Part shown: positions 16,081 through 42,411 of the stretch, one piece after another | Numbering within the stretch: the stretch's first letter is position 1 | Layout of the letters: each line of letters begins with the position of its first letter | From: Streptomyces alkaliterrae | GTDB lineage: Bacteria; Actinomycetota; Actinomycetes; Streptomycetales; Streptomycetaceae | NCBI RefSeq assembly: GCF_007097205.2 | Contig: NZ_VJYK02000001.1 | Location: forward strand, 1-62,299 | DNA length: 62,299 nt | Reading direction: 5' to 3' | The notes under the pieces: generated by a model | What the model was told of the DNA's origin: nothing | The model's database searches: none | The model's input: the letters and a program-made list of their open reading frames with translations, nothing else | Made by a program: the position numbers and the translations under genes

Positions 16081-16106
16081 GGCACCGACTCACGTGAGTC
16101 GGTGCC
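16081..16106. repeat. Dispersed palindrome copy 1
   Basis: Perfect 26-bp palindrome with core ACCGACTCACGTGAGTCGGT, 2 nt after the polA stop codon and 67 nt before the next possible leftward start. Confidence 0.95.
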
Positions 16107-16108
16107 TC

Positions 16109-17965
16109 CTAGTAGGTGGCGCCGTAGAGGGACCCCCATGACCGCTTTCCGATTTCGGCTTCCGCGACGATGGGAACGCCGAACAGGTCGAACGTCATCG
16201 CGCGCTCGAACTCCCGCGCGTAGTCCTTCGCTTCACGTTCCGGAACTGACGCGAGGATTTCGTCATGAATCGGCAGGCGCATGGCATCGAGCAGACCGGC
16301 GCTCTCGGCGTTGATAAGGGCTTGCCCAAGCAAGTCCCTTGCCGCTGACTGGCATTGGTAGTTCACAACGGCATAAGCCCGGTCACGGTCCAGTGGCATT
16401 CGCCTGCCGGTGGCCGACACGGTGACCATGCCGGTTGCCCGTGCTTCGCGTTGCCAACGTGCGGATGCTCGCCGGATCTCTGGGAACGCGTGGTCGTAGG
16501 CGGTTACCGCCCGGCGGATCTCGTCTTCACTCGCACCGGTCTGCCGGGCCAGCGTGGAAATGCCCCCCCCGTACACTTTGCCGAAACCGGCTCCCTTGTA
16601 GAGTTTGCGGTCTTTCTCGGTGGCCTCTTCACCCTTGATGAGTTGAGCCGTGAACATGTGAATGTCGAAATCTCGCCCGCCCGACTGAAAGCCTTCTTTC
16701 ATCCGGCGCACGTCGGCCAGCGCTGCCAGCACCCGCATTTCTACGGCCTGAAAATCAGTGCTCACCATGACGTGACCTTCGTCAGCAAGAAGGCACCGAC
16801 GGATCATCTGATCCGATGACGGCAGCGTTTGAAGTGCCGGACGCGTAACACTCATCCGACCCGTGCGCGCGGCCATGGAGTTGATGAACGGATGGACCCT
16901 GCCGGATGAGTCCACGGTCTCTAGGAACGTCTCCGCATACGTTGAGCGCCATTTACCCGCACGCTTGCTTTTCAGGATTGCCTCAGCCAGCGGATTAGGA
17001 GTGCGAACCCCAAGGCGTTTCCATTGCAGGTCCATGTCTGCAAGCGCAAGTAGCACGGCCTTGTCTATCTTGACGGCCCCGCCTGCCGTCCGCTCCGTCA
17101 GCGTCTCCCCCATGCCGGTGAGCGCTTCCGTTATCTGCTTGTTGGAGTTGACCGACTCGACCCCGTACCGCGCGGCGATACCCGCATACTCCTGCGCATC
17201 CTCCCTGAGTGCGGCGTTAAGTTCATGGGTGAACGGCACATCAAGGATGAGCCCCCGCCGCTGCATATGGGCACAGATACGGGATATCTCATGCTCGTAG
17301 TCCACCAGCCTTTCCCGAACGCCGAGTCGGTCGAGGGCAGCGGAGAGAATCGGAGCAAGTCGCGCCGTGAAGATTACGTCTAGCCCCGCGTAGAGATTCA
17401 ACAGGGGGTGATCTAGCGGGATGCGGGCAAAGCCGTTCGCCTTCGTGAGTCCCAGGGACCGGAAGACGCTTGTGAGGTCCCCTTGAGCGTCTGGGGCCGT
17501 GCGGTCCACGTAGTACGCAGACAGGGGCTTGAGCGCTGTCCCAATGCCCCCTTCCTGGGGTTGGCGTGGGTCCACAAGAGCGGCCATTACGCGCGTGTCC
17601 CGCGTTCGTGGCGCTAGGTCTTCCAACGCAATGCCCGCGTGCCGGTCCAACACCAGCCAGTCAAAGGCAGCGTTGTGGATCAGGAACCGGCGAGCCTTGC
17701 GGAGAACCTGAGCGGCAGCACGCCGGAAATGCCCCCCGCGCTCCCAATGGATTACCCACGCTTCGGAGGCGTCGCCAAACTGAATGGTGCGCAGACAGAA
17801 CCCATCACTGAATACGTCAAGTCCACTCGTTTCAGTGTCGAGCGCGATTGCACCCCGCACGGTTGCCCGCTGAGCCCATGCCGTGAACTGGTCTAGTTCC
17901 TCCGTGGTTTGAGGTACGCGGATGGCCACCGAGTCACCGGCGACCCTGTGTCGATAGACGCGCAT
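16109..17965 (-). CDS. DNA polymerase family A with 3'-5' exonuclease domain
   Basis: A 618-residue phage replicative polymerase. The N-terminal DEDD exonuclease begins with ALDTETSGLD (Asp43, Glu45). The polymerase domain shows motif A (VSTDFQAVEMRVLA, about 400), motif B (KLYKGAGFGKVYGGG) and motif C (IHDEI, about 567). The 5'-3' exonuclease domain of host Pol I is absent, as in phage enzymes. ATG 17965 follows GGGAGGG. It lies between palindromes 1 and 2, downstream of the primase-helicase. Confidence 0.96.
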   Translation of the reverse strand: MRVYRHRVAGDSVAIRVPQTTEELDQFTAWAQRATVRGAIALDTETSGLDVFSDGFCLRTIQFGDASEAWVIHWERGGHFRRAAAQVLRKARRFLIHNAAFDWLVLDRHAGIALEDLAPRTRDTRVMAALVDPRQPQEGGIGTALKPLSAYYVDRTAPDAQGDLTSVFRSLGLTKANGFARIPLDHPLLNLYAGLDVIFTARLAPILSAALDRLGVRERLVDYEHEISRICAHMQRRGLILDVPFTHELNAALREDAQEYAGIAARYGVESVNSNKQITEALTGMGETLTERTAGGAVKIDKAVLLALADMDLQWKRLGVRTPNPLAEAILKSKRAGKWRSTYAETFLETVDSSGRVHPFINSMAARTGRMSVTRPALQTLPSSDQMIRRCLLADEGHVMVSTDFQAVEMRVLAALADVRRMKEGFQSGGRDFDIHMFTAQLIKGEEATEKDRKLYKGAGFGKVYGGGISTLARQTGASEDEIRRAVTAYDHAFPEIRRASARWQREARATGMVTVSATGRRMPLDRDRAYAVVNYQCQSAARDLLGQALINAESAGLLDAMRLPIHDEILASVPEREAKDYAREFERAMTFDLFGVPIVAEAEIGKRSWGSLYGATY

Positions 17966-17989
17966 TCACTACCCTCCCGAGACAGGACA

Positions 17990-18015
17990 GGCACCGACTC
18001 ACGTGAGTCGGTGCC
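17990..18015. repeat. Dispersed palindrome copy 2
   Basis: Same 26-bp palindrome; here the symmetry extends to 32 bp (17987-18018). It lies 24 nt upstream of the polA start and 15 nt after the primase-helicase stop. Confidence 0.95.
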
Positions 18016-18030
18016 TGTTTTGGATGTGGG

Positions 18031-20454
18031 TTACTTGCCGAAGACTCCGGGCCCGCCGGGGGTTGGCTCCGCCGGTCGTATGCCGTTCAGGGAGACGCCC
18101 GTCCGCTTGACCGTGCGAATCACCCCCCGCTCTTCGAGGGCCGAATAGAAGGTGCGGCGCGTCCACCGCTCACGCTGCGGCAGGTTCTCCGATTCACACC
18201 AGTCGAGATAGGTAATGAATGCCTCATTGCCGTGCATGATGCCGCTTTCGTCGAACTCAAGGACGCCGGGCAGGAATCCCGCCAGTGCGTCACTGGTTCT
18301 CCGGTATTCGGCGCTCGCTTCCGTAATCCCCTCAGGGTCACGAAGACCACCCCGGTACCATTCGACTGCCCCGCGCACTGCCCACGCTGCAATGCCTTCG
18401 GCTTCTCGTAGCAGCTTCATGTCTAGCCCGTGGTCTCTTTCATGCGGCGCGAACCACCGCGTAAAAGGCAGCAACTTGACGCGCCGCCAGAGACCTTCAT
18501 CTTGGCCCCGAAACTTTGGTCGGTGGTTAGTGGCGAGAAGTAGCAGGAACGTAGGCTTGAAGGTGAAGAATTCTTGCCTCAGAAATCGCGCGGCGATTTC
18601 GTCCTTTCCGGTCACTCTCTTTAGCACGCTTTCAGACATTGGCTTGCCCGATTCACCTTCGGACGCCATGACCAGCCGTGCCCCGCGAAGTGCCGCGAGG
18701 TCGTTGGGGATACCCCCGGATGGCTTCTCTTCGAATGTGGCGAAGGGAGTTGTGCGGCTGACCGCACGAAAGACCGAAGTAAGGGTTTCCGTTGCTACGC
18801 TCTTTCCGTTGGCGCCCTTTCCCCAGAAGACACAGAAACACTGTTCGCTGGTGGCGCCAGTGATGCCGTATCCGATGAGACGCTGAAAATACGCGGGCAA
18901 CTCCGGGTCACTGGGGAAGATTTCCTGAACGAACTGTTCCCAGCGTGGACATTCGGCGTCCGCGCGATAGTCGAGGTCTAGCTGATAGGTGAGCATGTCA
19001 CGCGGGTCGTGCGGCTGGAGTTCGCCGGTCCTGAGATTCACTGTGCCGTTCTTGAAGCTCAGCAGATCCGGGCGGCTATCAAACTCGGATGCGTCCACGT
19101 GGACCAGGGGGACGCTCCGCAGTTCCCGTAGCAGGGCCTCAATGCGGGAAGTCATGGTGAAGCCCCGCGCGGCTTGTGTTTCGCCGACCAGGACGAGAGC
19201 CGCCCCCATGCGGTGAATCTCCTGCCGGACGCGGACTTCTGACCGCTCCCATCTCTGGCCGGTCCACACGTAGAAGCCCAAACCGGGCGCATAGCGAATA
19301 CCACCGTTCGACCACGCTACGAGCGCGTGTGCGTTCATGGCGTCGGATTCGCCGTACCTGGCGATGACCCCCGCAAGGATGCGCGCGGCTTCCGTGCCCT
19401 CAGAGCGGGTGACCACGTCCGTACCGGTGCGGTCGGTCACCTCTACCGCCACTGCTTGCGCCTTCGCTTCCTCTGCACCGATAACCGCTTGCGCCGACTT
19501 GACGGCATGGTGAAGGGCTGGTGGAAAGGCTTTATGGTCCCGCCCCCGCCAATCGGTCATGTCGTCGCCCTCATGCGGAATAGGTAGCCCGTAGACCTCA
19601 ATCCCGTACGGCTTGAGACCTTCGGCAAGGGAAAGGTTGAAGGTCCGTCCTGCTTGGTCGTTGTCCCCAGCGGCGATTACCTGAGTGCCCCGGAGTCCTT
19701 CAGCCAGCTCCGCCAGTAGCTCAGGGCTTCCGGCGAGAGCAGCACCCCGGATGACCACCGCGTCATATCCCACCGCAACGGCTGTAAGGCCGTCTCCGGG
19801 CCCCTCAGAGACGATGGTGACCCCATAGCCGCCCTGCCCCCTCAGAACGCCGTACGGGGCCCACCGCGCCCCTTCGGGATTACTCAGGGATACCCACCGC
19901 CCAGGGCACTTCCCGCTGAGGTCCCGCCCCTGGAGACCACGGGCTACGCCGTTGAAGTCACAGAGCGGCACGGTGAGCCGGGGGAATCGAGTGAACGCCC
20001 GTGCCCGGTAGGGGAAGTTCAGCATCGGAGCGCCGTTGTCCGCACCGAGCCGAAGGTCTGCGGCCGTGTCGGCATCAATACCGAACCGCTCGTGCACGTA
20101 CGCCATGGCGCGCGTGCCGACTGGTGAACCGTCGTGGAACAGGTCCCCGGTGCGGGCAACGTATGTGGCGAGTGCGGCTGTCGGTCCGGGGCCTACGAGA
20201 GTCGGGCGCTTACTGGGGATCGTCGCACCGGGGCCCGTGGCGTCGAACAGGTCTTTCCACGCCAGGCGAACGGCGTTGATGACATCCACGGTTGGGCACC
20301 CTGCCCGACACGTAAGGCGAACCTTGCCATCGTCGCCGCGCCAGATACGCAATGACGGGCGAGAGTCCTTGTGTGCGGGGCAGAGTGCGAGATATCCCCC
20401 GTCTCCATATTCGGTCACATCAGCGAACCGGGCGAGAATGTGAGTGAACTCCAT
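18031..20454 (-). CDS. Primase-helicase (CHC2 zinc finger, Toprim, D5/P4-type helicase)
   Basis: An 807-residue protein for replication initiation. In order: zinc finger CPAHKD...CRAGC (C25, H28, C49, C53), Toprim region (IVSEGPGDGLTAVAVG, then AAGDNDQAGR, about 225-285), and a superfamily 3 helicase with Walker A GKGANGKS near residue 547 and LLLATNHRPKF. The architecture resembles the P4 alpha family. ATG 20454 is preceded by AAGGAGG; an in-frame longer form exists but lacks a site. It is downstream of its own terminator/operator region and directly upstream of polA. Confidence 0.95.
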   Translation of the reverse strand: MEFTHILARFADVTEYGDGGYLALCPAHKDSRPSLRIWRGDDGKVRLTCRAGCPTVDVINAVRLAWKDLFDATGPGATIPSKRPTLVGPGPTAALATYVARTGDLFHDGSPVGTRAMAYVHERFGIDADTAADLRLGADNGAPMLNFPYRARAFTRFPRLTVPLCDFNGVARGLQGRDLSGKCPGRWVSLSNPEGARWAPYGVLRGQGGYGVTIVSEGPGDGLTAVAVGYDAVVIRGAALAGSPELLAELAEGLRGTQVIAAGDNDQAGRTFNLSLAEGLKPYGIEVYGLPIPHEGDDMTDWRGRDHKAFPPALHHAVKSAQAVIGAEEAKAQAVAVEVTDRTGTDVVTRSEGTEAARILAGVIARYGESDAMNAHALVAWSNGGIRYAPGLGFYVWTGQRWERSEVRVRQEIHRMGAALVLVGETQAARGFTMTSRIEALLRELRSVPLVHVDASEFDSRPDLLSFKNGTVNLRTGELQPHDPRDMLTYQLDLDYRADAECPRWEQFVQEIFPSDPELPAYFQRLIGYGITGATSEQCFCVFWGKGANGKSVATETLTSVFRAVSRTTPFATFEEKPSGGIPNDLAALRGARLVMASEGESGKPMSESVLKRVTGKDEIAARFLRQEFFTFKPTFLLLLATNHRPKFRGQDEGLWRRVKLLPFTRWFAPHERDHGLDMKLLREAEGIAAWAVRGAVEWYRGGLRDPEGITEASAEYRRTSDALAGFLPGVLEFDESGIMHGNEAFITYLDWCESENLPQRERWTRRTFYSALEERGVIRTVKRTGVSLNGIRPAEPTPGGPGVFGK

Positions 20455-20491
20455 GGCGTAATGCCTCCTTCGGTTACTCGCCCTTGAGCGC

Positions 20492-20515
20492 GACGGTTGC
20501 CTAGACACGACCGTC
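20492..20515. promoter_or_regulatory. Inverted repeat upstream of the primase-helicase
   Basis: GACGGT (20492-20497) and ACCGTC (20510-20515) with a 12-nt spacer, between the upstream terminator and the primase-helicase start. This operon lacks a copy of the dispersed palindrome, so this may be its own operator. Confidence 0.45.
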
Positions 20516-20529
20516 ACCCTGTGTCGATT

Positions 20530-20588
20530 CCGCGGGGCCCGGCATGTCCGTTTTCACCAGACCTGATCCCATGCCGGCGGCCCCGCGG
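20530..20588 (-). terminator. Terminator after the resolvase-like gene
   Basis: Long interrupted inverted repeat (CCGCGGGGCC and GGCATG with their complements) around a ~23-nt loop, directly after the stop at 20592 on the leftward strand. Confidence 0.75.
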
Positions 20589-20591
20589 TTC

Positions 20592-21104
20592 TTACGGAGC
20601 GTGACGACGGTCGCGCACGTCCTTGAGTAGACGCGCGAAGGCTTCTAGATCCGTCGTCATGTACCAACGCCCGGTGTCGAGCCCCCGAAGCGACGGCAAG
20701 AACAGGTACCGATCCGCAAACTCCCGCGTCCCCATCTCCAGCGAACGCCGCACCCGGGTCCACGTCCGCACTCCGAAATGCACACTGCCCCGCCGAACGT
20801 TCTTCCGGGGAATCTTGACTACAGCGACACCGAAGGGGAAACCCGCGTGAACGGCCTCAATCTCCCCCTGTCGCACGAAAGTTGGGACACTGGGGCGCTT
20901 GACGTTCTTGCACTCCAGAACGAAGGGCACCGCATGCACGTCACCAACGTCGGCGGCGCCTTCTTGCGCGGGTCTCCGGACGTTGTGAGCGTCGAACGGG
21001 TCGCGGAGCTTCCCGCTTTCGTCTACCTGCCCTAGAGCGCTATTCAGGTAGTCGCGCACGTCGCTCTCCCAGGCAGTTCCTTTGACTTTGTTCGGATTAG
21101 CCAT
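20592..21104 (-). CDS. Holliday-junction-resolvase/PD-(D/E)XK-like nuclease
   Basis: A 170-residue protein starting MANPNKVKGTAWESDVRDYLN. The pattern KGTAWE, RRPAQEGAADVGDVHA and FVLECKNVKR is the E-D-(E)CK signature of phage resolvase-like restriction-fold enzymes. It would cut branched DNA during replication or before packaging. Its start overlaps the stop of the 60-residue gene upstream by 8 bp. Biochemical role inferred from the fold signature. Confidence 0.8.
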   Translation of the reverse strand: MANPNKVKGTAWESDVRDYLNSALGQVDESGKLRDPFDAHNVRRPAQEGAADVGDVHAVPFVLECKNVKRPSVPTFVRQGEIEAVHAGFPFGVAVVKIPRKNVRRGSVHFGVRTWTRVRRSLEMGTREFADRYLFLPSLRGLDTGRWYMTTDLEAFARLLKDVRDRRHAP

Positions 21105-21279: not shown

Positions 21280-21291
21280 TCCTCCCCCTCC

Positions 21292-21313
21292 CACCGACTC
21301 ACGTGAGTCGGTG
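21292..21313. repeat. Dispersed palindrome copy 3
   Basis: Perfect 22-bp palindrome, 12 nt upstream of the start at 21279 and just downstream of a separate leftward terminator (21326-21366). This order argues against the palindrome itself being the operon terminator. Confidence 0.95.
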
Positions 21314-21325
21314 CCCGGTACGCGA

Positions 21326-21366
21326 AAGGGCCGGACAGTGCCCGCGTGGGGTGCTGTCCGGCCCTT
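21326..21366 (-). terminator. Terminator between two leftward operons
   Basis: 13-bp arms AAGGGCCGGACAG and its complement over a 15-nt loop, 8 nt after the stop at 21375. Confidence 0.9.
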
Positions 21367-21374
21367 GTTGGTTG

Positions 21375-21819: not shown

Positions 21820-21822
21820 GGC

Positions 21823-22586: not shown

Positions 22587-22608
22587 CACCGACTCACGTG
22601 AGTCGGTG
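22587..22608. repeat. Dispersed palindrome copy 4
   Basis: Perfect 22-bp palindrome, 50 nt upstream of the RDF start and 48 nt after the exonuclease stop. Confidence 0.95.
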
Positions 22609-23949: not shown

Positions 23950-23971
23950 CACCGACTCACGTGAGTCGGTG
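23950..23971. repeat. Dispersed palindrome copy 5
   Basis: Perfect 22-bp palindrome, 44 nt upstream of the start at 23905 and 65 nt after the stop at 24037. Confidence 0.95.
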
Positions 23972-24732: not shown

Positions 24733-24754
24733 CAGTGACTCACGTGAGTCACTG
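24733..24754. repeat. Dispersed palindrome copy 6 (symmetrical variant)
   Basis: AGTGACTCACGTGAGTCACT with one flanking C/G pair: two bases in each arm differ from the other copies (CC to GT on the left, GG to AC on the right), so the dyad stays perfect. 16 nt upstream of the GTG at 24716, just downstream of a terminator. Confidence 0.92.
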
Positions 24755-24825: not shown

Positions 24826-26250
24826 TTACGCCTTGAGTTCCTTGCGGAGCGTGGACAGCAGTGCCGTCAGTTCGTCCAATGCTTCTTCTTGTTCTTCGGC
24901 GTTCTCGATGGCCTTAATCTCCTTAACGTGCTTCTTCCATGAGTTCTTCATCCTCTGGAGGTATGCCGCACGCTTCTCCTTGGGGCTCTTCTCTTCCGTG
25001 GTGCCGCCGCCCAGCGTTTCGGCAGCTTCTTCCTCGGAGAGTTCGCCCGCCTTTACGGCGTCCTCAACCTTCTTGCGCTCAAGTGCCTTCTTCTCGCGGG
25101 TGGCCTTCGCGATCTCGGCGCGAGTCTGCTTCGGCAGGGCCTTGCCTGCCTCTTCGTAGTGCTTGAAAACTGCCTCGGACGGCTTGAGGTCCGGGTAAGC
25201 GTCAAGGGCCTTCGCGAACCGCTTACGCTCCTCAAGCGTTTCGGGGGTTTCCTGGTCAAGTGCTCGAACGTAGCCGACCACCACGTCCGTCATCGCGTTA
25301 CGGACATCCTTCTTGATATCCCCGATCGCCTCACGGATGATGTCAGCCGTTTCGTCCGTACCCTCTTCCGGAAGCCCCTTGAGAACCGCGTCATAGACCG
25401 CCGAAGCGGCCTTCTTGGCTTGGTCGCTGCGGGCGGTAAGGTCCGGGTCGTCATCCTTGTCAAGAATGTGAGTCCGAATGTCGAAGATCGCTTCGGCCAC
25501 CTCCTTACCACGCGCGAACTTCTGCGCAGCAACTTCCTTTACCTTCTCGGCAGCCGCAACGATCCGATCGGGCACACCCTCAGCCTTCATGAAGTCCTGA
25601 GTACCCTTGACAACGATCTCCGGGTCCTTCTTGGAGCCCTTTGCATCAGTCGGCTTCTTCGCGTCCGCCTTCGCCTTCTTGGCGTCCTTCTCCGCCTTCT
25701 CCGCCTCAGCGCGAAGCTTCGCCTTGATGGCGGCAGCACCGGTTCCGGTGATCTTGGGGATTGCGGCGTTAATACCCTCCGCCAGTTCCTTGGCGGAATC
25801 GTCCTTACCCTCAGCGATGAGCGACCGCAGACGCTCAATGTCTGCCCGGATTTCCTCGGCGGCCTTCTCTTGTTCAGCCTTCTTCATCGGTGCGTTCTTC
25901 GCGGCCATGGCGTCCGTCTCCGTCTTCTCTTCGGCGGTGCCGGTAACAGGCTTTGCTACTCGGCGAGTCACGGTGCGGTTCAACCCCGGAATCGAGACCT
26001 GTTCCTCGGCGATCTCAACCGGGCCGGTAGGGACCAGCTTGCTGCACTTGATGCAGAGTTCAAGGTGGGGCTTCTGCTCATGCGCCTGCCCCCACGAGCG
26101 AAGGGGAGTCTTCGTGCGCGTCGGACAGTAGGGGACGTTGCGACCATCGGCGTCAACGTCCTTGATGGCGTGGATAGCCCCGGTGCCGGTACCCGCACTG
26201 CCGACGCGGACGTCTCCGCGAACCTCACTCAGCTTGAGCTTTCCAGCCAT
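24826..26250 (-). CDS. Long Lys/Ala/Glu-rich phage protein
   Basis: A 474-residue protein. The N-terminal ~100 residues carry CPTR and CIKC pairs (a possible zinc site). The rest is highly charged helix and coiled coil (EAEKAEKDAKKAKADAKK near residue 190) with a more globular middle (DFMKAEGVPDRIVAAAEKV) and a Lys-rich C-terminus. ATG 26250 was preferred over 26256 because GGGGAG is 7 nt upstream. It sits alone between terminators among early genes, not in the head module, so a scaffold role is unlikely. I do not recognise it. Confidence 0.8.
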   Translation of the reverse strand: MAGKLKLSEVRGDVRVGSAGTGTGAIHAIKDVDADGRNVPYCPTRTKTPLRSWGQAHEQKPHLELCIKCSKLVPTGPVEIAEEQVSIPGLNRTVTRRVAKPVTGTAEEKTETDAMAAKNAPMKKAEQEKAAEEIRADIERLRSLIAEGKDDSAKELAEGINAAIPKITGTGAAAIKAKLRAEAEKAEKDAKKAKADAKKPTDAKGSKKDPEIVVKGTQDFMKAEGVPDRIVAAAEKVKEVAAQKFARGKEVAEAIFDIRTHILDKDDDPDLTARSDQAKKAASAVYDAVLKGLPEEGTDETADIIREAIGDIKKDVRNAMTDVVVGYVRALDQETPETLEERKRFAKALDAYPDLKPSEAVFKHYEEAGKALPKQTRAEIAKATREKKALERKKVEDAVKAGELSEEEAAETLGGGTTEEKSPKEKRAAYLQRMKNSWKKHVKEIKAIENAEEQEEALDELTALLSTLRKELKA

Positions 26251-26336
26251 CGTCATACTCCCCGCATCCTTCTCGACTCCGCTCCGTGCGGCGCCGTGCG
26301 GGGCCAACCATGGCACACGCGCGCGCGTGCGCGCAA

Positions 26337-26362
26337 GGCACCGACTCACGTGAGTCGGTGCC
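26337..26362. repeat. Dispersed palindrome copy 7
   Basis: Perfect 26-bp palindrome between a terminator (26377-26408) and the start at 26250, 86 nt upstream of that start. Confidence 0.95.
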
Positions 26363-26376
26363 CCGAAACCAAGAAG

Positions 26377-26408
26377 GCCCCCTACCTGCACGGATGCAGA
26401 TAGGGGGC
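26377..26408 (-). terminator. Terminator after the dNMP kinase
   Basis: Arms GCCCCCTA/TAGGGGGC plus CTGCA/TGCAG around a short loop, followed on the leftward strand by CTTCTTGG. Confidence 0.9.
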
Positions 26409-26431
26409 TCTTGTGTTCGAGTGCCATCGAG

Positions 26432-27383: not shown

Positions 27384-28319
27384 TTACACATGAGGCACCT
27401 TGAGCGCGTCCCACTGCCTCTTTCCGGGCCATCCGTCGCAGTAGGCGGGCGCGTCTCCTAGTTTGCGCTGCCACTTCCGGAAGCTCTCCCGATCGGCGTT
27501 AGTCCACTGAGGTCCGGGGCCGGACCGGTAGGCGGAACACCCCTCCGCTACGAGACGCTTACCCATTGCCGTAACAACAGGACTCTTAGGGTTCCTCTTA
27601 AACCAGGCAGCACCCGGGAACGGCTGATATACGGGGGTTCGCTTCGGCTGAGGTCCGGGAATTTTGAGACGCTGACCGGGACGGATGAGATACGGGGCCC
27701 GAATACCGTTGAGGCTCGCAAGGTCCTGCCAGCGCACGCCAAGCTTGGCCCCGATCCGGGTAAGAGTGTCGCCAGACCGGACGGTATAGGCGCCTGCCGA
27801 ATCTCCCTTCTCGTCGGTCGCACCGGGCTCCAACGTGCCCGACCGAACGAGCGTGTAGAGCGCCGCACCGGGGCACTCGGTTGCGTAACCGTCCCGGTGG
27901 CCCCGAATTTCACTACCGGCCCCGCCGTGCCTTCGTAGGTAGGCAATCGCGTCGCGAATACCGTCTACCTGCGCCTTCGTAGGCACTGTGTGCCCCGCAC
28001 TGCCGACGAGCGCCAGGACCGCGTAATGATCCCTGTTCAGACCCGCGTTTCCGTTCGCTGCACACTGCACCCCGGCTCCGCGCCCCTCGAAGACGTAGCC
28101 ATGTTCACAGACGGCAACCGAATAGGCGATATCCGCCCAGCCCTGCCCATCCATGTGACTGTTCTGAATGCGGCGCACATAGGCGGCGCAAGTCGAGTGC
28201 TCACCGACTTCGTACCGGGTGCCGAGATAGTGAACCTTGACGCCCCGGGTCTTCGTTATCGGCGGATGAATGTTGGTGGGCTTACGCGCTCCCCATGCGG
28301 CGCGACTGACGAATTCCAC
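27384..28319 (-). CDS. Endolysin: N-acetylmuramoyl-L-alanine amidase with LysM and C-terminal wall-binding region
   Basis: A 311-residue enzyme. The amidase_2/PGRP domain (about 1-165) starts EFVSRAAWGARKP and carries the zinc ligands in VKVHYLGT and GHRDGYATECPG. A LysM domain follows (YTVRSGDTLTRIG...LIRPGQRLKIP, about 190-235), then a peptidoglycan-binding-like C-terminus (ESFRKWQRKLG, GWPGKRQWDAL). GTG 28319 has a perfect GGAGGT. No signal peptide is seen, so release depends on a holin. A hairpin lies in the leader. Confidence 0.95.
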   Translation of the reverse strand: MEFVSRAAWGARKPTNIHPPITKTRGVKVHYLGTRYEVGEHSTCAAYVRRIQNSHMDGQGWADIAYSVAVCEHGYVFEGRGAGVQCAANGNAGLNRDHYAVLALVGSAGHTVPTKAQVDGIRDAIAYLRRHGGAGSEIRGHRDGYATECPGAALYTLVRSGTLEPGATDEKGDSAGAYTVRSGDTLTRIGAKLGVRWQDLASLNGIRAPYLIRPGQRLKIPGPQPKRTPVYQPFPGAAWFKRNPKSPVVTAMGKRLVAEGCSAYRSGPGPQWTNADRESFRKWQRKLGDAPAYCDGWPGKRQWDALKVPHV

Positions 28320-28345: not shown

Positions 28346-28372
28346 GCCCCGCCGGGCGTATCCCGACGGGGC
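28346..28372 (-). terminator. Hairpin in the endolysin leader (attenuator or terminator)
   Basis: GCCCCG-C-CGGG and CCCG-A-CGGGGC pair with a single mismatch over a 5-nt loop. On the leftward strand it is followed by a pyrimidine-rich run (CTTCCTATTTCTC) before the endolysin ribosome binding site, and it lies downstream of palindrome copy 8. Confidence 0.65.
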
Positions 28373-28376
28373 GGAC

Positions 28377-28398
28377 CACCGACTCACGTGAGTCGGTG
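28377..28398. repeat. Dispersed palindrome copy 8
   Basis: Perfect 22-bp palindrome, 57 nt upstream of the endolysin start, with the leader hairpin in between; 30 nt after the stop at 28429. Confidence 0.95.
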
Positions 28399-29277: not shown

Positions 29278-30349
29278 TGAAGGCCTCCCGACTGGCCAGA
29301 CTGAGCGACACGGTTTCCCCGCCTGTGGTATCGACGTCCACGCGCCGTTCCGTGATGACGAACTCATCGAGCAGCGCGACATAGCCCCCGGAGTCGACTA
29401 CTACCGTCCCTACGGCGCCAGGAATGAACTGACTGGGAGAGAAGCCGGGGTAGAGGGTCAGTGTCGGCACACCGATTGGCTTCCTGCCCAATGTGGCGAT
29501 TGCCGCCGCCTTCGGAATCAGCGAAGCTGTCGTCTTCGTGTCTGAGTACGTCGCTACCGACACCATGCGCGGGGTGTCGAGCGCGGGATTACTTGAGGAA
29601 GCGTAGGGCTTGGCGCCGCTTCCTAGGTCTGCTCCGAACGCGTAAGCGTGGGTGGTCAGTTGGGTACCGTCGTAGCTCACATTCGTGGCGTTGCAGTTCG
29701 CGCGGTGCTCAAGCTGAGGAAACGACAGGGAACCTCGCTGCGAGATGCGGAAGTGATGCCCGACGCGGCTCCCCTGTGTGTGCCAGAAGGACTCGTACCG
29801 GAAATCGAATCCGGTAATGTCGTCTGCCATTTCGTCAATTGCTTCGGCTATGCACTTGAATTCATAGAACGACCACGACCGTGTGCGGACGCGCCCGGTG
29901 TTCGTGATAGTGGAAGTGTCCGTCCCGATGCCGCCGTTGGCGTTGGCGTAACCAATCCATTCCCTGAGCAAAACGGCTTGATCCGTGCTCTTCCGCTTGT
30001 ATCCCGCCTTCGCATCTAGGTACCGGCGCCCGTAGTAGGAGTGGTAGCCGGACGCGTTGAGCGTCAACACACCTTCTCCAAGGTCCGCCGACGCGCCCCA
30101 GAGAACGCCACCCCACACCGGTTCTCCGTCACGTAGGACGACCAGGCCACTTCCACCAGGGGTGAGCGACCCCGCGTCCGCCTCGGGAGCGAACAACGGC
30201 ATACCTACCGTGGCGTCACCCGCAGCGTTAAGAGTTTCAACGTACGAGAGTCCCGTCACGGGCAGCGTGGTGACCACGGCGCCTGTCCGTAGGTTCGTCT
30301 GCACGACTGCATACTCGGCGTTCGGCACTACACCCACCTGTTCCGCCAC
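29261..30349 (-). CDS. Minor tail protein (siphovirus tail hub type)
   Basis: A 362-residue protein from GTG 30349. The N-terminal beta segments (LRTGAVVTTLPVTGLSYVE, LVVLRDGEPVWGGVLWG) are typical of the gp37/tail-hub-like minor tail proteins of siphophages; the C-terminus has PGAVGTVVVDSGGYVALLDEF-type strands. It would form the tail hub beneath the tape measure. It overlaps the upstream distal tail gene by 22 bp. Confidence 0.8.
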   Translation of the reverse strand: MAEQVGVVPNAEYAVVQTNLRTGAVVTTLPVTGLSYVETLNAAGDATVGMPLFAPEADAGSLTPGGSGLVVLRDGEPVWGGVLWGASADLGEGVLTLNASGYHSYYGRRYLDAKAGYKRKSTDQAVLLREWIGYANANGGIGTDTSTITNTGRVRTRSWSFYEFKCIAEAIDEMADDITGFDFRYESFWHTQGSRVGHHFRISQRGSLSFPQLEHRANCNATNVSYDGTQLTTHAYAFGADLGSGAKPYASSSNPALDTPRMVSVATYSDTKTTASLIPKAAAIATLGRKPIGVPTLTLYPGFSPSQFIPGAVGTVVVDSGGYVALLDEFVITERRVDVDTTGGETVSLSLASREAFIANPS

Positions 30350-31144: not shown

Positions 31145-31174
31145 GGGGCACCGACTCACGTGAGTCGGTGCCCC
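31145..31174. repeat. Dispersed palindrome copy 9
   Basis: The longest standard form: a perfect 30-bp palindrome with GGGG/CCCC ends, 22 nt upstream of the distal tail start. Confidence 0.95.
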
Positions 31175-31177
31175 GTT

Positions 31178-31194
31178 GCTCACGTGAGTCGGTG
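31178..31194. repeat. Dispersed palindrome, partial copy beside copy 9
   Basis: CTCACGTGAGTCGGTG with the left arm truncated; only CTCAC/GTGAG remains symmetrical. It lies 3 nt from copy 9 and 5 nt after the tape measure stop, giving a tandem of one and a half sites. Confidence 0.85.
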
Positions 31195-36025: not shown

Positions 36026-36055
36026 GGGGCACCGACTCACGTGAGTCGGTGCCCC
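36026..36055. repeat. Dispersed palindrome copy 10
   Basis: Perfect 30-bp palindrome with GGGG/CCCC ends, 13 nt after the major capsid stop and 18 nt upstream of the connector start. Confidence 0.95.
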
Positions 36056-37238: not shown

Positions 37239-37855
37239 TACTGGACACCCCCCTTGTGTAGCAGCGCGCGGGAAAGAATGCGCGCCGGATGATCGGCCAC
37301 CGACTCACGTGAGTCGGTGGGCACGTCGGGAATGCCGAGAGTCAGCGCGATAGAGCGACTGAGCGCGGCATCGGTGGTCGGATAGGCGGGAGTGAGAACC
37401 GGGCCAAGCTCGATCACGTCCATGTGCGTGATCTCCCGAATGGGAAGCCCGGTTTCGGGGTCTAGTTCGTCATGGACGCGCTGCCCGCCGTCGCGCACTC
37501 GGAATGTGAAGCTGCTGCCGCGCACATCTCCACGCGCGAGCAGTTCGGCTAGATCACGACCTAGAGTCGTGTCGGGTAGATCGATCTCGTACCATCCGCC
37601 GTCGGCATCCTCGCCGGTGCGAAGAGTGCCCGACGATGTGCGGCCAAGGACGTTGTTTACGTCGTGGTTGAACGTCGCAAGTACGTCGTTCACCTTGAGT
37701 GAGTCGGCACCCGCGCCAGGCATAATCCGTTCACGGAAGCCGCCTAGGTTCTGGCTCAGTTCGTTGAACCGGTAGGCGTACCCACGCACTGTCAGTGCGG
37801 CGTCTGCGGATCGGATCTCAGCCGGTAGCGCTAGGCTCCTGTGTTCCGTCGTCAT
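37238..37855 (-). CDS. HK97-type prohead protease
   Basis: A 205-residue serine protease. His in ATFNHD (about residue 63) and Ser in RGSSFTF (about 116) match the catalytic pair of HK97 gp4-like proteases; TVRGYAYRFNELS and GFRERIMPGA are also typical. Palindrome copy 11 lies inside its 3' end and encodes PTDSRESVA near residue 180, beyond the catalytic core. The start overlaps the portal gene end by 38 bp. Confidence 0.94.
   Translation of the reverse strand: MTTEHRSLALPAEIRSADAALTVRGYAYRFNELSQNLGGFRERIMPGAGADSLKVNDVLATFNHDVNNVLGRTSSGTLRTGEDADGGWYEIDLPDTTLGRDLAELLARGDVRGSSFTFRVRDGGQRVHDELDPETGLPIREITHMDVIELGPVLTPAYPTTDAALSRSIALTLGIPDVPTDSRESVADHPARILSRALLHKGGVQ
37297..37320. repeat. Dispersed palindrome copy 11, inside the protease coding region
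   Basis: Perfect 24-bp palindrome within the protease gene, 58 nt upstream of the capsid start. The only copy inside a well supported gene. Confidence 0.95.
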
Positions 37856-39143
37856 CAGTAGAGTCCCCCTTAGGGCCCCCGCGCGTCGGGGGTTGATCTG
37901 TTGATGGGGGCTCGATGGCAGCGAGGTTCAAGGGCACGCGGTGCGCCGCCCCTTGACCATCCGGCAAGGGCTCCAGGTCCTCCCACGCGCGCACTTCGTC
38001 AATGCTGTAAATGCCTTGCTGCAAGCCGATTGAGTACATGCCCATGCGCTCACTCGGGGCCCCACGCTGGATGCCGTCCAGACTGAACTTCACGAACTGC
38101 CGCCGGTCGGCAGTCTCCGCGTACAGAAGACGCGTGAAACCCGCTTCAATCCGCTCAAGCCACGGACGCAAAGAGAACATGGAGAAAGCTTGATTCTGCT
38201 CAGCAAGCCCCGAGCCCCAGCTAGTTGAGTTCGTGGCGTCCGCTATAAGGTGAGGCGGAACACCGAAGATCCTGGCGATTTCCGGGACCTGAAATTGGCG
38301 CGTCTGCAAGAACTGTGCTTCGTCCGGCGAGAGCGCCACTTTGGAGAACTTCGCGCCTTCGGTCAGCAGCGCAACGCGGTGCGCGTTCTCTGCCCCGGAG
38401 TTGGCCAGTCGCCACGCCTCACGCGCACGCGCCAGACCTTCCTCGGACATGGCGCCCGGCACTTCAATGAGCGCGCCCGGCATGGCGCCATTTGCGAAGA
38501 ACTTCGCGCCGTAGGTCTGCGCCGCCATGGCAAGCCCAATCGACTCACGAGCGTGCGCGATTGGCGAGACCCCGGTGAATTCCCCGGGAAGCATCATTCC
38601 GGGAATGTGCAGGATCTCCCGGGTAGTGAACCACCCAAGGGCTACCTCATTACCCGTTTCGTCGTAATCCGCGACATGGAAGACCTTGCGACGCTTCCCC
38701 TCAACGACAACCGTATGGGTTTGAATGCGATTGGGGTCAAGAACCTCAAGCCCGGCAATGCGGGGACCGTCCCATAGGACAGCGAGATAGGCATTGCCGT
38801 CCAAGAGCAGCGAAAGGACAACCTGCGACAGCAAGTCGATGCGCCCAAGTCCACCCGGTTCCGCATTCGGGTAGTCCAGCCACGGCGGAGACTCGATACG
38901 CCTACGAGCGGAGTCCCGACGCGCATAGGTGGCCACCGGCAGCGTGCATATCGTCTCGCTCAACAGACGGACGCACGCGAAGACAGCCGAGACAGTCAAG
39001 GCACTATTCGCGTCAACCCGTTGACCAGCAGCCGAAACGGCACCAGGGAGGGGAAACAGGTCTGACGCAGGGTCCCACCGTGCCCGATGCTGTACCGAAT
39101 CCGCCGATGAGCGCCGAAAGAGCGCACGCCAAAAGCCCATCAT
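37818..39143 (-). CDS. HK97-type portal protein
   Basis: A 441-residue protein starting MMGFWRALFRRSS. Portal hallmarks: VSAVFACVRLLSETI, LLLDGNAYLAVLWD, EILHIPGMM, and FARIFGVPPHLI-like VPEIARIFGVPPHLIAD. It forms the dodecameric DNA channel. GGGGGG precedes the ATG pair at 39143. The C-terminus is Pro/Thr-rich and overlaps the protease start. Confidence 0.95.
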   Translation of the reverse strand: MMGFWRALFRRSSADSVQHRARWDPASDLFPLPGAVSAAGQRVDANSALTVSAVFACVRLLSETICTLPVATYARRDSARRRIESPPWLDYPNAEPGGLGRIDLLSQVVLSLLLDGNAYLAVLWDGPRIAGLEVLDPNRIQTHTVVVEGKRRKVFHVADYDETGNEVALGWFTTREILHIPGMMLPGEFTGVSPIAHARESIGLAMAAQTYGAKFFANGAMPGALIEVPGAMSEEGLARAREAWRLANSGAENAHRVALLTEGAKFSKVALSPDEAQFLQTRQFQVPEIARIFGVPPHLIADATNSTSWGSGLAEQNQAFSMFSLRPWLERIEAGFTRLLYAETADRRQFVKFSLDGIQRGAPSERMGMYSIGLQQGIYSIDEVRAWEDLEPLPDGQGAAHRVPLNLAAIEPPSTDQPPTRGGPKGDSTDDDGTQEPSATG

Positions 39144-39171
39144 GAGCCACCCCCCGCGTGACTCACCGAGT

Positions 39172-39193
39172 CACCGACTCACGTGAGTCGGTG
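39172..39193. repeat. Dispersed palindrome copy 12
   Basis: Perfect 22-bp palindrome, 28 nt upstream of the portal start and 11 nt after the terminase stop. Extra GACTCAC and CGAGTCAC words lie just beside it. Confidence 0.95.
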
Positions 39194-39204
39194 CCTGAGT
39201 CCCA

Positions 39205-40761
39205 CTAGTCGTCTAGGTACTGGTCAAAGTCCCGTGCACCCACGTTGAACACGCGACCGCCTTCCTCCCATGTGGCGATCACCGCCGTTTCGATCAACTC
39301 CGGGTTGTCCTCCCGGAACATCACCGCACCATGAACCGCCAGGATCATGGCAACGGCGAGATCGATCTTTCGGCGGGAATTCGCGTGCTCCTTGGTGACG
39401 CGCGCCCCGTACTTATCCTCGCGAAGAACGGCGTTTCCAACGTGCCGTGCTAGCGCGGGATTGCCGTCATGTGACAACCTCCCGTCCCGACACGCGTCGT
39501 ATACCGCTTGAGTCGCCGGAACCATGCGTTTGAGACTGTTGGTCGGGAAAGCCTCAACAGGCCACCCCTCCGCCTCAAGGTTGTCTAGCGTCTCTTCCCA
39601 GCGGTACGGGTCAGCGACAAGGTTCCGCACCGTGTACGTGTCCAGTGCTGAACGAAGAACGTCCCGCACGTCCGCCATAGGCACCCGCCAGTGCGCGTCA
39701 TCCTGGGGAGCCTCCCAGTGGCCCAACACGAAGACTCGTAGGTCTGCCACCCGGCAGGCGACGAGCGCCGTGCTGTCGCCCTTCCATGAGCCGTCAAAAC
39801 CCAACACAACGGCCTCTCCGGGGTTCAGGGTGTCATCGGCCGCAAGAGAGCCCCAGAGGCCGTGAGGCAGCCACGTAGAGGCTCCACGGACGAACTGCGA
39901 CAGTCGGTAGATTCGGAAGCTCGCTTCCGTGCTCCGCTGAGCGGCAGCCTTGAAGTCTTCCTCGTTCAGGATCTCGTACGACGGGTTGCACGCGCGCCAC
40001 ACTTCGGGGTCTAGGTGGTCCACCTGTTCCCCGATGCGCGGACCCCACGACCGATAGCACAGCGTAGGGTCTACTGCCTCACCCGAATTAACGCGCTCCC
40101 CCTGTTCGCAGAGTTGCGCGAAGGGCCCGTCCGGATCGGGACCGGCAGTCGAAACCACCCACGTAATCGGCTGATATCGAGCGGCACTGCCCAGCGTCAA
40201 CGCGTCGAACAGATCAGCGCTCTTACTGAACGCGTACTCGTCCAGACTTACCGCACTCGGATTAAGGCCCTGCTGCCGCCCAGCATCCGCACTCACCACT
40301 CGATAGGTGCAGTCCTTGAACCGGATTACGTCCCGCTGAACATCGCAGACAGCCGAAAGCTTGGGAGACGCGGTCACCATGCTCTTGGCCGCGTCGAAAA
40401 CCATCCGAGCTTGATTCCGGTCATTGGCAGCGGCGATGATCTGACGCTGAGCGTCCGCACGGTCGGCAATCAGGTGGTACAGCATGATTGCGGCGGCAAG
40501 CGTCGACTTGCCGTTCTTCCGCGCAATGCAGACAACAACCATTCGATGCTTACGAATCCATCGACCGCGCGCATCCTGCCGAAGTTCATACGCGTCGACG
40601 AGTAGTCGCCGCTGCCATTCGAGCAGCCGAAAAGGCTGACCAGCAAAACTCCCCGTAAGGCGGCAAAACGTTTCGATCCAATTCGCCACCCGATACCCCT
40701 CACTCGGGAACGGCGCATCAGCGGGAATGTGGCGAGAGATTACGCGGTCAATACCTGCCAC
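39205..40761 (-). CDS. Terminase large subunit
   Basis: A 518-residue packaging motor. The ATPase shows Walker A ARKNGKST (about residue 88) and Walker B AVSLDEYAF (about 180); the nuclease half has VLGFDGSWKGDSTAL (acidic site) and VGNAVLRED with a late KIDLAVAMILA. GTG 40761 has GGGGGTG upstream. Family terminase_1 (phage lambda-like/HK97-type). The imperfect palindrome copy 13 is 17 nt upstream. Confidence 0.96.
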   Translation of the reverse strand: MAGIDRVISRHIPADAPFPSEGYRVANWIETFCRLTGSFAGQPFRLLEWQRRLLVDAYELRQDARGRWIRKHRMVVVCIARKNGKSTLAAAIMLYHLIADRADAQRQIIAAANDRNQARMVFDAAKSMVTASPKLSAVCDVQRDVIRFKDCTYRVVSADAGRQQGLNPSAVSLDEYAFSKSADLFDALTLGSAARYQPITWVVSTAGPDPDGPFAQLCEQGERVNSGEAVDPTLCYRSWGPRIGEQVDHLDPEVWRACNPSYEILNEEDFKAAAQRSTEASFRIYRLSQFVRGASTWLPHGLWGSLAADDTLNPGEAVVLGFDGSWKGDSTALVACRVADLRVFVLGHWEAPQDDAHWRVPMADVRDVLRSALDTYTVRNLVADPYRWEETLDNLEAEGWPVEAFPTNSLKRMVPATQAVYDACRDGRLSHDGNPALARHVGNAVLREDKYGARVTKEHANSRRKIDLAVAMILAVHGAVMFREDNPELIETAVIATWEEGGRVFNVGARDFDQYLDD

Positions 40762-40778
40762 GCGCACCCCCAATACGA

Positions 40779-40799
40779 CACCGACTCACGCACGTCGGT
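40779..40799. repeat. Dispersed palindrome copy 13 (degenerate)
   Basis: CACCGACTCACGCACGTCGGT: the outer arms ACCGAC/GTCGGT are intact but the centre reads TCACGCAC instead of TCACGTGA. 17 nt upstream of the terminase start. Confidence 0.85.
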
Positions 40800-40805
40800 C
40801 GATAC

Positions 40806-41246
40806 TCAGAAATCCTCAGGTCCGGCAGCGATACGGCGTGCCTCAGCCGCCACGATTCCTAGCCGCATGCGCGCTTCGGGAGTGAAACCAATGACTGTCT
40901 CGATCGCCCGTAGCTCTTTCTCCGTGGATTCCACATAGCGCATAGCAGGATGAACAACGGGCTGACCGGTTGAGCCAACGGCCATGAGACCATCCTCAGC
41001 GACAGCCGAAAGGAGTTCAGCGCGCCGGTCGTGCAGCTCCGCGTAGCGAAGGATGATGTTCCGGTCAGTCTCCGGGGAGTACGCCCCGTTCCCCGCCGTC
41101 CAGACGTTGCGCCAGACCTCGCGCCCGACGCGCTTGAGTCCAGCAGGGGCCCGGGGTGCTCGCCCTTCGTAGACCACGGGGGCGGCACTCTCGGCGGCGC
41201 CGTTAGCGTGGCCGGTGCGCATGTCGGGGCTCTTACTCCGAGACAC
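40806..41246 (-). CDS. Terminase small subunit, P27 family
   Basis: A 146-residue protein with PRAPAGLKRVGREVWRNV, TDRNIILRYAELHDRRAEL and a late AIETVIGFTPEARMRLGI, characteristic of P27-type small terminases that recognise the cos site. GTG 41246 follows AAGGGGG; another GTG at 41252 is too close to that site. Confidence 0.92.
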   Translation of the reverse strand: MSRSKSPDMRTGHANGAAESAAPVVYEGRAPRAPAGLKRVGREVWRNVWTAGNGAYSPETDRNIILRYAELHDRRAELLSAVAEDGLMAVGSTGQPVVHPAMRYVESTEKELRAIETVIGFTPEARMRLGIVAAEARRIAAGPEDF

Positions 41247-41252
41247 TGACAC

Positions 41253-41443
41253 CCCCTTAACGGGCCTTAAAGGCCCCTTAACTTCGCCCTTCTCGCGGGG
41301 TCGGAATGGCGTTTCCCCAGTAGCCGCACGGGTCAGTCGACCAAAAAAGGCGTCACACCTAGCGCGCGTTTCGGAAGCGGGGGGCGGGATCGCCAGAGGC
41401 CACGTCCGGCGAACTTCGGAAGCGCCCTACCCTTACCACGGAG
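41253..41443. other. Noncoding region between small terminase and HNH genes, cos candidate
   Basis: 191 nt without a gene. Features: GGGCCTTAAAGGCCC (dyad around one A, near 41261), a direct repeat TTCGGAAGCG at 41370-41379 and 41415-41424, and G-rich and C-rich runs between. In cos-type phages with an HNH-P27 arrangement the packaging site is usually close by; the exact nick positions cannot be read from sequence. Confidence 0.4.
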
Positions 41444-41827
41444 TCAGAACGGACGCTTACCGAAGTCCATTGCGGTCTTGATCTTGTGGCAACGCTTGCA
41501 GAGAACCTGAACGTTGCTCGCCACGTCTTCCCCGCCAAGCGCAAGGGGCTTGATGTGGTCAATGTCCACCTGACTAGGCAGGTAGGTCACGCCACACATG
41601 GCGCACGTTCCGGCTACAGCCTTGCGTACAGCCTTGCGCAGAAGTGCCGCCGCATTGTGGCCACGGGCGATAGCCTCGCGCCGCTTGCGGTGCGCCTGAC
41701 ATGAACGGCCGTTCTCATAAGCCTTGTGGTGCGCGTGGCACCGCCCCCGGTGAGTTGCCCACTCTCGGCACTCAAGACACCGAATACGAATGACACACCC
41801 CCTATCGGGGAATGCCCCCATAAACAT
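41444..41827 (-). CDS. HNH endonuclease (packaging-associated)
   Basis: A 127-residue protein with two Cys/His clusters at the N-terminus (CLECREWATHRGRCHAHH) and a classic HNH domain: CAMCGVTY, VDIDHIKPLALGG, NVQVLCKRCHKIKT. HNH proteins beside terminase are needed for cos cleavage in several HK97-like phages. Start ATG 41827 lacks a clear ribosome binding site; translation may start further in. Confidence 0.88.
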   Translation of the reverse strand: MFMGAFPDRGCVIRIRCLECREWATHRGRCHAHHKAYENGRSCQAHRKRREAIARGHNAAALLRKAVRKAVAGTCAMCGVTYLPSQVDIDHIKPLALGGEDVASNVQVLCKRCHKIKTAMDFGKRPF

Positions 41828-41860
41828 ACGCCGCGAATAGCCAGGCGGTACCATTTCCAC

Positions 41861-42388
41861 GTGACGCCAGATCAAAGCGTGAAGCAGTGCCGAGAATGCG
41901 ACGTGAGCCTGCCTCCCAACAGAAAGGCACCACTATGCAGAACATGCCTCCGCTCTCAATACGCTGCCACATGGGAGAAGCGCGCACAGACAGGTGAGAT
42001 CAAATGCAAACAATGCGACACACTAAAACCGGTCACATCCTTCAATCGCAATACGTATGTCTGCAAGCCATGCCATGCCGACTATGAGCGCGCCCGCCGA
42101 GCAGAGGAGGCGGAGAACAAGCGGCGCACCGGGGCTAAGCCGTACGCCGACCAACGCATGAAGCGCACCGCCCAAAACCTGGGAATCTCACCGTCTGATT
42201 TTGCCGTTGTCCGCATGAAGCCATGCGGGGCATGCGGCCACGAAGCAACCGACGAAAGACCCAACACGGGACTAGCCGACGCATCCGGAAGGTTCGCCGG
42301 AACCGTCTGCCTGTCATGCGCCCGGGGCTATGCCTTCCTGAGGAAGGACCCGGAGGTAGTACGGAGGCTTTCTGAGATGCTGGAATAG
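41861..42388 (+). CDS. Zinc-ribbon protein related to endonuclease VII, active site degenerate
   Basis: A 175-residue protein with CRECD...CRTC and CKQCDTLKPVTSF...CKPCHADYERARR zinc ribbons, then a C-terminal CGACGHEA, GRFAGTVCLSCARGYAFL and DPEVVRRLSEML segment resembling the end of endonuclease VII-like proteins. The DHDH-type catalytic stretch expected before TGRVRG is replaced by LADASGRFAG, so it is probably not active. GTG 41861. It is on the strand opposite its neighbours. Confidence 0.75.
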   Translation: MTPDQSVKQCRECDVSLPPNRKAPLCRTCLRSQYAATWEKRAQTGEIKCKQCDTLKPVTSFNRNTYVCKPCHADYERARRAEEAENKRRTGAKPYADQRMKRTAQNLGISPSDFAVVRMKPCGACGHEATDERPNTGLADASGRFAGTVCLSCARGYAFLRKDPEVVRRLSEMLE

Positions 42389-42389
42389 G

Positions 42390-42411
42390 CACCGACTCAC
42401 GTGAGTCGGTG
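42390..42411. repeat. Dispersed palindrome copy 14
   Basis: Perfect 22-bp palindrome in the 28-nt space between the stop of the rightward zinc-ribbon gene (42388) and the 3' end of the leftward tRNA (42417). It is 3' of both genes. Confidence 0.95.

Follow-up and report, generated by a model that had tools for sequence, protein, structure and literature searches.

The 62,299-nucleotide stretch of Streptomyces alkaliterrae contig NZ_VJYK02000001.1 analyzed here (the window) contains a phiC31-like prophage, whose genes run leftward from a serine integrase (42958-44778, reverse strand; PF00239, E 1e-21) to a sigma-like gene encoding a phage sigma-70 region 2 protein (14910-15746, reverse strand; PF04542, E 9.1e-6). 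In this direction the order is integrase, terminase, portal, capsid, tail, lysin, dNMP kinase, repressor, exonuclease, recombination directionality factor (RDF), RusA, primase, polymerase, and the sigma-like gene. In a megablast search with positions 16000-40900, 16 phage records were matched, all of them from Streptomyces phages and among them phiC31, phiBT1, and TG1, the alignments covering 4-14% of the query with an identity of 72-78%. Dispersed among these genes are 13 perfect palindromes, which very probably are the operators of the prophage's own c-type repressor, a protein of 476 residues encoded at 24826-26256 on the reverse strand and the probable reader of the repeats. The evidence for this is comparative throughout, binding by c being deduced from homology and from the co-segregation of repressor and operator.

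The 14-bp core GACTCACGTGAGTC is present without mismatch in each of the 13 palindromes claimed by a first-pass annotation of the window. In the whole draft genome (5,999,109 bases in 769 contigs), all 13 copies of this core lie inside the prophage, at 16081-42411, in agreement with the earlier description of the family as confined to it. The exact 22-mer CACCGACTCACGTGAGTCGGTG occurs in 12 copies, the exception being the one at 24733, which reads CAGTGACTCACGTGAGTCACTG, a symmetric four-base variant with both arms altered; the 20-mer originally given for the whole family holds for those 12. The perfect dyad spans 22 to 32 bp, the lower end being as first described and the upper end, set by the longest copy (17987-18018), exceeding the 30 bp then given. 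With up to three mismatches allowed, the 20-mer is found 13 times in the window (12 exact copies and the degenerate one at 40779) against 0.01 expected. Also, the two partial copies listed earlier, at 31178 and 40779, were confirmed.

The predicted reader matches the whole of the Pfam profile PF25746, "Streptomyces phage repressor protein c" (E 3.6e-98), and the open reading frame 24826-26427 is 32.6% identical to phiC31 c over 445 amino acids (E 6e-43). The likely start of the gene is the ATG at 26256, because the palindrome at 26337 falls inside the longer reading frame. As in phiC31, where a homologous repressor occupies the same gene position, c is preceded by the dNMP kinase gene and followed by the exonuclease gene, and it is encoded on the same strand as the lytic genes. 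It also lies inside the palindrome array, with the copy at 26337 before its start and the copy at 24733 after its end; the first-pass annotation overlooked c, and its statement that no palindrome falls in the lysogeny region does not stand. Among the readers that it suggested, an unrecognised phage DNA-binding protein was right in kind, and the XRE proteins and the sigma factor are not needed.

Exact copies of TACTCACGTGAGTA number 15 in phiC31, 16 in phiBT1, 14 in Lilbooboo, 15 in Vash, 14 in Shawty, and 15 in Samora. In phiC31 and phiBT1 (Lomovskayavirus), we regard these repeats as the conserved inverted repeats (CIRs), to which the c repressor binds. The 42-kDa isoform of phiC31 c binds the CIRs. 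The window palindromes have the same 12-bp core, ACTCACGTGAGT, as both phages, where it is repeated 15 times (phiC31) and 16 times (phiBT1), and they resemble them in number (13-16 copies per genome) and in lying mostly between genes. The analogy with the phiC31 repeats, first drawn from layout, is borne out by this core, and the accompanying opinion that the sequence differs from known ones is not. The phiC31-type 18-mer CCTACTCACGTGAGTAGG differs from 12 of the window copies only by a symmetric T-to-G pair, the base pair seven from the center (±7) being G/C in all 13 window copies and T/A in the counted phiC31 and phiBT1 copies; the wings of the window are CACCG/CGGTG, unlike those of the two phages. 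Five viral contigs carry the exact 18-mer CCGACTCACGTGAGTCGG, in 12 stretches, and the genome collection has it in 29 stretches. Four other prophages with this G-class operator and a c 56-74% identical to that of the window (tblastn) carry at least 15 (UViG 2932597426), 14 (UViG 2934556957), 19 (S. violascens), and 16 (Streptomyces sp. H27-C3) sites, these counts being lower bounds from pieces of contigs. In L015 and L026, where c is about 30% identical, and in related contigs, the 18-mer has AACCG wings and few copies.

For nine of the 13 window sites, phiC31 has a site at the corresponding junction, as judged from tblastn-mapped neighbors and the phiC31 annotation. The shared junctions are polymerase and sigma (16081-16106, 13-bp arms; phiC31 29550), primase and polymerase (17987-18018, 16-bp arms; 27545), the position after the gp4-like gene (21292-21313, with a hairpin directly upstream in the gene direction; 24366), dNMP kinase and c (26337-26362, 80 nt before the likely c start; 19203), the position before the endolysin gene (28377-28398; 17012, gene 50 being at 17105), tape measure and Dit (31145-31174, 15-bp arms; 11092), major capsid and gp37 (36026-36055, 15-bp arms; 6100), large terminase and portal (39172-39193; 2851), and integrase and HNH (42390-42411; 41034). 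The last is placed beside tRNA-Leu in the window, about 515 nt before the HNH gene, whereas in phiC31 it is next to HNH. The remaining four have no phiC31 counterpart, lying inside the 3' end of the protease gene (37297-37320), directly after c and a hairpin (24733-24754, the symmetric variant), between two small unknown genes downstream of c (23950-23971), and between exonuclease and RDF (22587-22608). Conversely, the phiC31 copy inside c (19775) is missing in the window.

The site before RDF is exact in three of the four G-class relatives and has one mismatch in the fourth. The protease palindrome, 58 nt before the capsid gene, is read within the protease frame as PTDSRESV, and since its coding of TDSRES is kept in the window and in all four relatives, it is both coding and operator-like. 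Moreover, the degenerate copy at the junction of small and large terminase (40779-40800) is best read as a decayed site, because three of the four relatives have an exact copy there. The other partial copy (31173-31194) retains one intact half-site and abuts the palindrome at 31145.

With respect to neighboring starts and terminators, the earlier description held in part. A distance of 12-90 nt from leftward start codons had been given, with the tRNA and protease copies excepted; the copy at 16081 is about 335 nt from the start at 15746, and that at 37297 is inside the protease frame. Terminators had been placed before the palindromes at 21.3, 24.75, and 26.35 kb, and hairpins do occur there in the gene direction; however, the terminator scan lists only that near 26.4 kb in this way (26377-26408, reverse strand, between dNMP kinase and the palindrome before c), the one at 21.3 kb being listed on the other strand and the one at 24.8 kb not at all. 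At 28377 the arrangement is reversed relative to the other hairpin-palindrome pairs, the terminator-like hairpin (28346-28372) following the palindrome and preceding the start of the endolysin gene.

A similar organization can be recognized in other phages. TG1 has the same core, in 11 exact copies, and a c homologue annotated as a repressor, but differs from the window in having C at ±7 and mixed wings (CACTC, TACTC, TGCTC). PMC4557955 describes multiple repressor sites (18-30) scattered over the genome in both the phiC31 and the L5 system, and three isoforms of the phiC31 repressor. For L5 and cluster A phages, PMC6550527 describes stoperators of which most lie away from promoters and are thought to block elongation, with motif and repressor diverging together. 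Many dispersed repressor sites are common to cluster A and the window; however, L5 sites are 13-14 bp long, lack dyad symmetry, number 20-30 per genome (PMC6550527), and are bound by a monomer (PMC4557955), whereas the window has 13 perfect palindromes, not asymmetric sites, and a PF25746 repressor. Also, for R4, phiJoe, and phiScoe, PMC10276819 reports a repressor between structural and early genes and intergenic sites, and by this description their repressor-stoperator layout is like that of the window; no R4 record was among the 24 phage records matched by phiC31 c in tblastn.

Among 38 viral loci with a c relative, 21 carry at least two copies of ACTCACGTGAGT and 17 do not. Some of these 17 use other spacers or cores and several have no convincing motif, five rows of the repressor tree being labelled "x". 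The alternative operators include ACTC-TCAA/TTAA-GAGT with unequal wings (Sebastisaurus, Heather, and RemusLoopin), GACTC-AATT-GAGTC in three copies (Dubu), CCTC-ACGT-GAGG (AbbeyMikolon), and operators with a 5-bp spacer (Euratis and some viral contigs). In Euratis (L053), L085, and L086, the latter have an extra central base (ACTCAC-N-GTGAGT or ACTCA-3-TGAGT), Euratis having sites with a 4-bp spacer as well. In Dubu (L057), each of the GACTCAATTGAGTC sites at 29455, 31590, and 33991 takes up the whole 18-bp spacer that separates a TTGACC/G from a TACATT-like hexamer, a textbook case of an operator placed within a promoter. Also, CGTTAACG occurs 16, 11, and 8 times in about 20 kb of L095, L075, and L074, far above expectation, and the repressors of these contigs group with that of Dubu. 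Comparison of the G and T classes, with sites chosen by the 12-bp core so that conservation of the core is by construction, shows that in the G class (77 sites and 154 half-sites from the window and its four relatives) positions 7, 10, and 11 from the center never vary and conservation is 93-97% at positions 8 and 9, and that in the T class (124 sites from ten phages) positions 7-8 are conserved at 95-98% and positions 9-11 at 64-75%.

The operator class largely follows the repressor tree. The tree holds 39 c domains, 31 being rows of alignment A2 (24 of the 38 viral loci, the other 14 being taken as near copies) and eight being rows from the 14 of alignment A1, the rest of which were already present. 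Mapping 11 operator labels on it requires 11 changes, the least possible being 10, against a mean of 25.0 when labels are shuffled, and none of 200 shuffles was as low; near copies and shared descent by themselves make labels cluster. The five G rows form one clade (100/100), as do the TCAA rows (100/100), and the T label needs two changes, with one mixed genome inside the T group. Some labels are weak, based on few sites: the 5-bp spacer in L076, L082, L085, and L086 (3-4 copies each) and TCAA in L083, L087, and L093 (5 copies each). The deep order of the tree is unsure because of a long-branch warning. Moreover, the large terminase of the window is 81-85% identical to those of seven phages of the T, C, TCAA, and 5-bp-spacer types, in which c is only 25-34% identical, which argues that the operator does not simply follow the neighboring structural genes.

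The region of c proposed to bind DNA is a conserved helical domain comprising residues 219-412 (25021-25602, reverse strand), which the AlphaFold2 model predicts with confidence (predicted local distance difference test 92.0, predicted template modeling score 0.78). The eight residues invariant throughout A2 (R261, P271, D272, N320, D324, A362, R379, and E381) are all in this domain. Thirteen columns are fixed in the five G rows and differently fixed in the ten T rows, four of them flanking N320 and R379 (from T to G class: Q319R, K321A, G378T, and T380A). Our guess is that these four substitutions set wing specificity, the G clade differing also by descent. A sequence-profile search of the PDB with c gave four matches, none below E 0.018, so that no solved structure was found for the repressor family. 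The whole-protein model had no Foldseek match at E ≤0.001, and its VIA matches, with Z reaching 9.9, fell for the most part on the helical region 124-204. For the isolated domain, the best Foldseek E was 1.5 and the best Z 3.8 (root-mean-square deviation 4.1, 82 aligned residues), weak matches that are no proof of a new fold; in BFVD, three matches were found at E ≤0.001, all being Streptomyces phage proteins (Shawty, Vash, and Nesbitt). Also, an internal ATG (Met117) preceded by GGAG would give a possible short isoform of 360 residues (24826-25908, reverse strand). This codon, with which the internal start of phiC31 c aligns, is aligned in 29 of 31 A2 rows, a lenient Shine-Dalgarno pattern being present in 27 of the 31, and a start codon is present in only 8 of 14 A1 rows; it may fit an in-frame short form of c, without proving one.

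Based on these comparisons, a symmetric repressor oligomer would bind the palindromes with one subunit per half-site CACCGACTCAC, and in the lysogen the bound repressor would silence the lytic genes at many points at once. Elongating RNA polymerase would be blocked at gene starts and module borders, as by a stoperator-like roadblock, phage promoters would be shut where a site overlaps one, and c would regulate its own expression from the two flanking copies. That the palindromes are operators of c, with roadblock, promoter shut-off, and autoregulation mixed in this way, is highly probable. The narrower proposal, in which bound c would stop a passing polymerase at most window copies, is only slightly favored, on account of the lack of excess promoter overlap, of outer-arm covariation in the G class, and of U-tracts.

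An alternative is that the palindromes are classical promoter operators only, each copy overlapping a phage promoter, perhaps read by the phage sigma factor, so that initiation is blocked and no roadblock is involved. This scenario seems rather unlikely. In its favor, 10 of the 13 copies are intergenic and just before a gene start, hairpins stand ahead of three copies as if a new unit started there, and a sigma-like gene is present. Sites were scored for sigma-70-like promoters (77 G-class, 124 T-class, and 65 other sites, each against 20 mononucleotide shuffles of its flanks), and overlap at a score of at least 8 was found at 12% of 33 TCAA sites (shuffles 3.6%) and at all three Dubu sites, which sit in an 18-bp spacer between TTGAC- and TA---T-type hexamers, the Dubu overlap having been noticed before scoring. 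However, at that score none of the 77 G-class sites lies in such a promoter (shuffles 1.1%, less than one site expected), their mean best score being 0.08 against 1.87, with no candidate at 11 of the 13 window copies, and the T class shows no excess either (3% of 124 sites, shuffles 2.4%). A consensus promoter scan over 28 kb gave six promoter-like sites, about the level of shuffles, none overlapping a palindrome. Moreover, the sites between large terminase and portal, between major capsid and gp37, and between tape measure and Dit, inside the structural operon, are hard to see as promoters, though they could be.

A second alternative, that the repeats are RNA hairpins acting as terminators or processing sites without a protein reader, we regard as very improbable. 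Three copies have 15-16 bp per arm, some copies in other phages have T-tails (e.g., TG1 and phiC31), and single chromosomal copies in Streptomycetaceae form the tip of longer hairpins. Also, the outer arms covary in the T class (124 sites, z 6.7) and in six other phages (62 sites, z 4.2), with within-phage permutation and slid registers as controls. Registers slid by -1, +1, and +2 in the T class gave z 2.0, 3.7, and 2.6, and since these are also positive and two symmetric site types per phage would give the same signal, T-class sites are not claimed as terminators. In the window and its four relatives, on the other hand, covariation of the outer arms is absent (77 sites, z -1.0), and the relatives have uncompensated changes in single arms. 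Likewise, no window palindrome is followed by a U-tract or T-run or is among the terminator-like matches, which do not exceed shuffles (9 vs 11.0 and 6 vs 10.3), and a stem alone needs no fixed 22-bp sequence, yet 12 of the 13 copies are identical.

The chance that the reader is another phage or host DNA-binding protein, such as the XRE/DUF5753 protein at 11981-13117 or a partition or packaging protein, is slighter still. Helix-turn-helix proteins are encoded nearby and dispersed palindromes are typical of centromere-like sites; however, the core is the repeat of c-encoding phages, the DUF5753 gene lies outside the leftward phage operon and on the opposite strand, and operator class tracks c. 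Finally, a generic host repeat is rejected as the main explanation, all 13 core copies being in the prophage and the 18-mer occurring in just three of 391 other Streptomyces genomes (with 1, 2, and 1 copies).

Several observations weigh against the assignment of the palindromes to c, or against the roadblock proposed for them. The copy at 37297 lies within coding sequence, and those at 16081 and 42390 have no gene start close by. The wings differ from those of phiC31, so phiC31 c need not bind the window sites. In the tree, the 5-bp spacer needs three changes, 42 of 500 shuffles being as low, and the label "no motif found" also needs three. Common descent with the phage could also make operator class and c co-segregate; this objection is weakened by the terminase comparison, but Dubu and AbbeyMikolon are also distant in terminase (27-30%). 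The promoter overlap of the TCAA and Dubu sites means that roadblocking is not the sole mode in the family, and the promoter tests cover the sigma-70 type only, so that promoters of the prophage's own sigma factor could escape the scan. Also, the window and S. violascens each have a single copy of the variant CAGTGACTCACGTGAGTCACTG, which adjoins the repressor gene in both but follows c in the former and precedes it in the latter (L042:5290); this recurrence at a different junction suggests a special site type at the c locus, which the proposed mechanism does not explain.

Taken with these points, the window set is most likely a repressor operator set ordinary in kind, a variant of the phiC31 system, and comparison with the relatives suggests that whole site sets change their recognition letters together with the repressor. 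An unexplained palindrome family is in this way placed in a known system and its probable reader named. No description of the G-class operator was found in the open-access literature searched, as far as its available texts go, and we accordingly count as new the G class with its wings, the family-wide variation of the operator, and a confidently predicted repressor domain for which no PDB match was found. More tentatively, and as a possibility that we would not yet call probable, all these elements may be joined: phiC31-type phages would hold a multi-site immunity system with up to 19 operators per genome that switch specificity together, in at least six types (wing T, G, or C; core ACGT, TCAA/TTAA, or AATT; a CCTC half-site; a 4- or 5-bp spacer) that for the most part follow the branches of the c tree. 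The repressor domain would be all-helical and without resemblance to the DNA-binding folds solved so far, the residues next to the invariant Asn320 and Arg379 would set its specificity, and most sites would be roadblocks and not promoter operators. Within this combined proposal, the mixed genomes TG1, Euratis, and the viral contig of L067 are possible intermediates. These phages are a natural set of repressor-operator pairs whose differences are graded, the smallest being a single symmetric base pair, and heteroimmunity between G-class prophages and phiC31 is predicted. Two questions become testable, namely which residues set the specificity of c and how a repressor with a dozen or more sites changes specificity without losing lysogeny.

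The exact 18-mer is also found outside phages with c. Wide occurrence in host chromosomes had been named as the finding that would overturn a phage-specific reading, and the repeat is not wide; yet 15 of the 29 genome-collection stretches lack homologues of the 16 window phage proteins tested (14 have them) and hold one copy each. They comprise 12 Streptomycetaceae stretches (L017, L020-L022, L024, L027, L029, L030, L032, L034, L037, and L043), a Clostridia and a Planctomycetota metagenome-assembled genome, and Lacticaseibacillus. No c homologue was detected at 1e-4 with 14 queries in these 15 stretches or in the viral locus L006. Most of the single copies are the tip of a longer hairpin, which the repressor model leaves unexplained and which also counts against it; the only account we have for those of Streptomyces is that they are host terminators. 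Several of the 12 Streptomycetaceae hairpins have similar flanks, as in a host hairpin with a phage-operator core.

Two further features were noted. At 14910-16000 the prophage seems to end soon after the sigma-like gene, lacking the small genes that are grouped between sigma and integrase in phiC31, and it may thus be shortened. In addition, phiC31 (L046) has a second repeat family, CCGGGTTGCCGACTCCCTTACGG, in nine copies (e.g., at 27580, 31186, and 36219), which are presumably its conserved early promoters.

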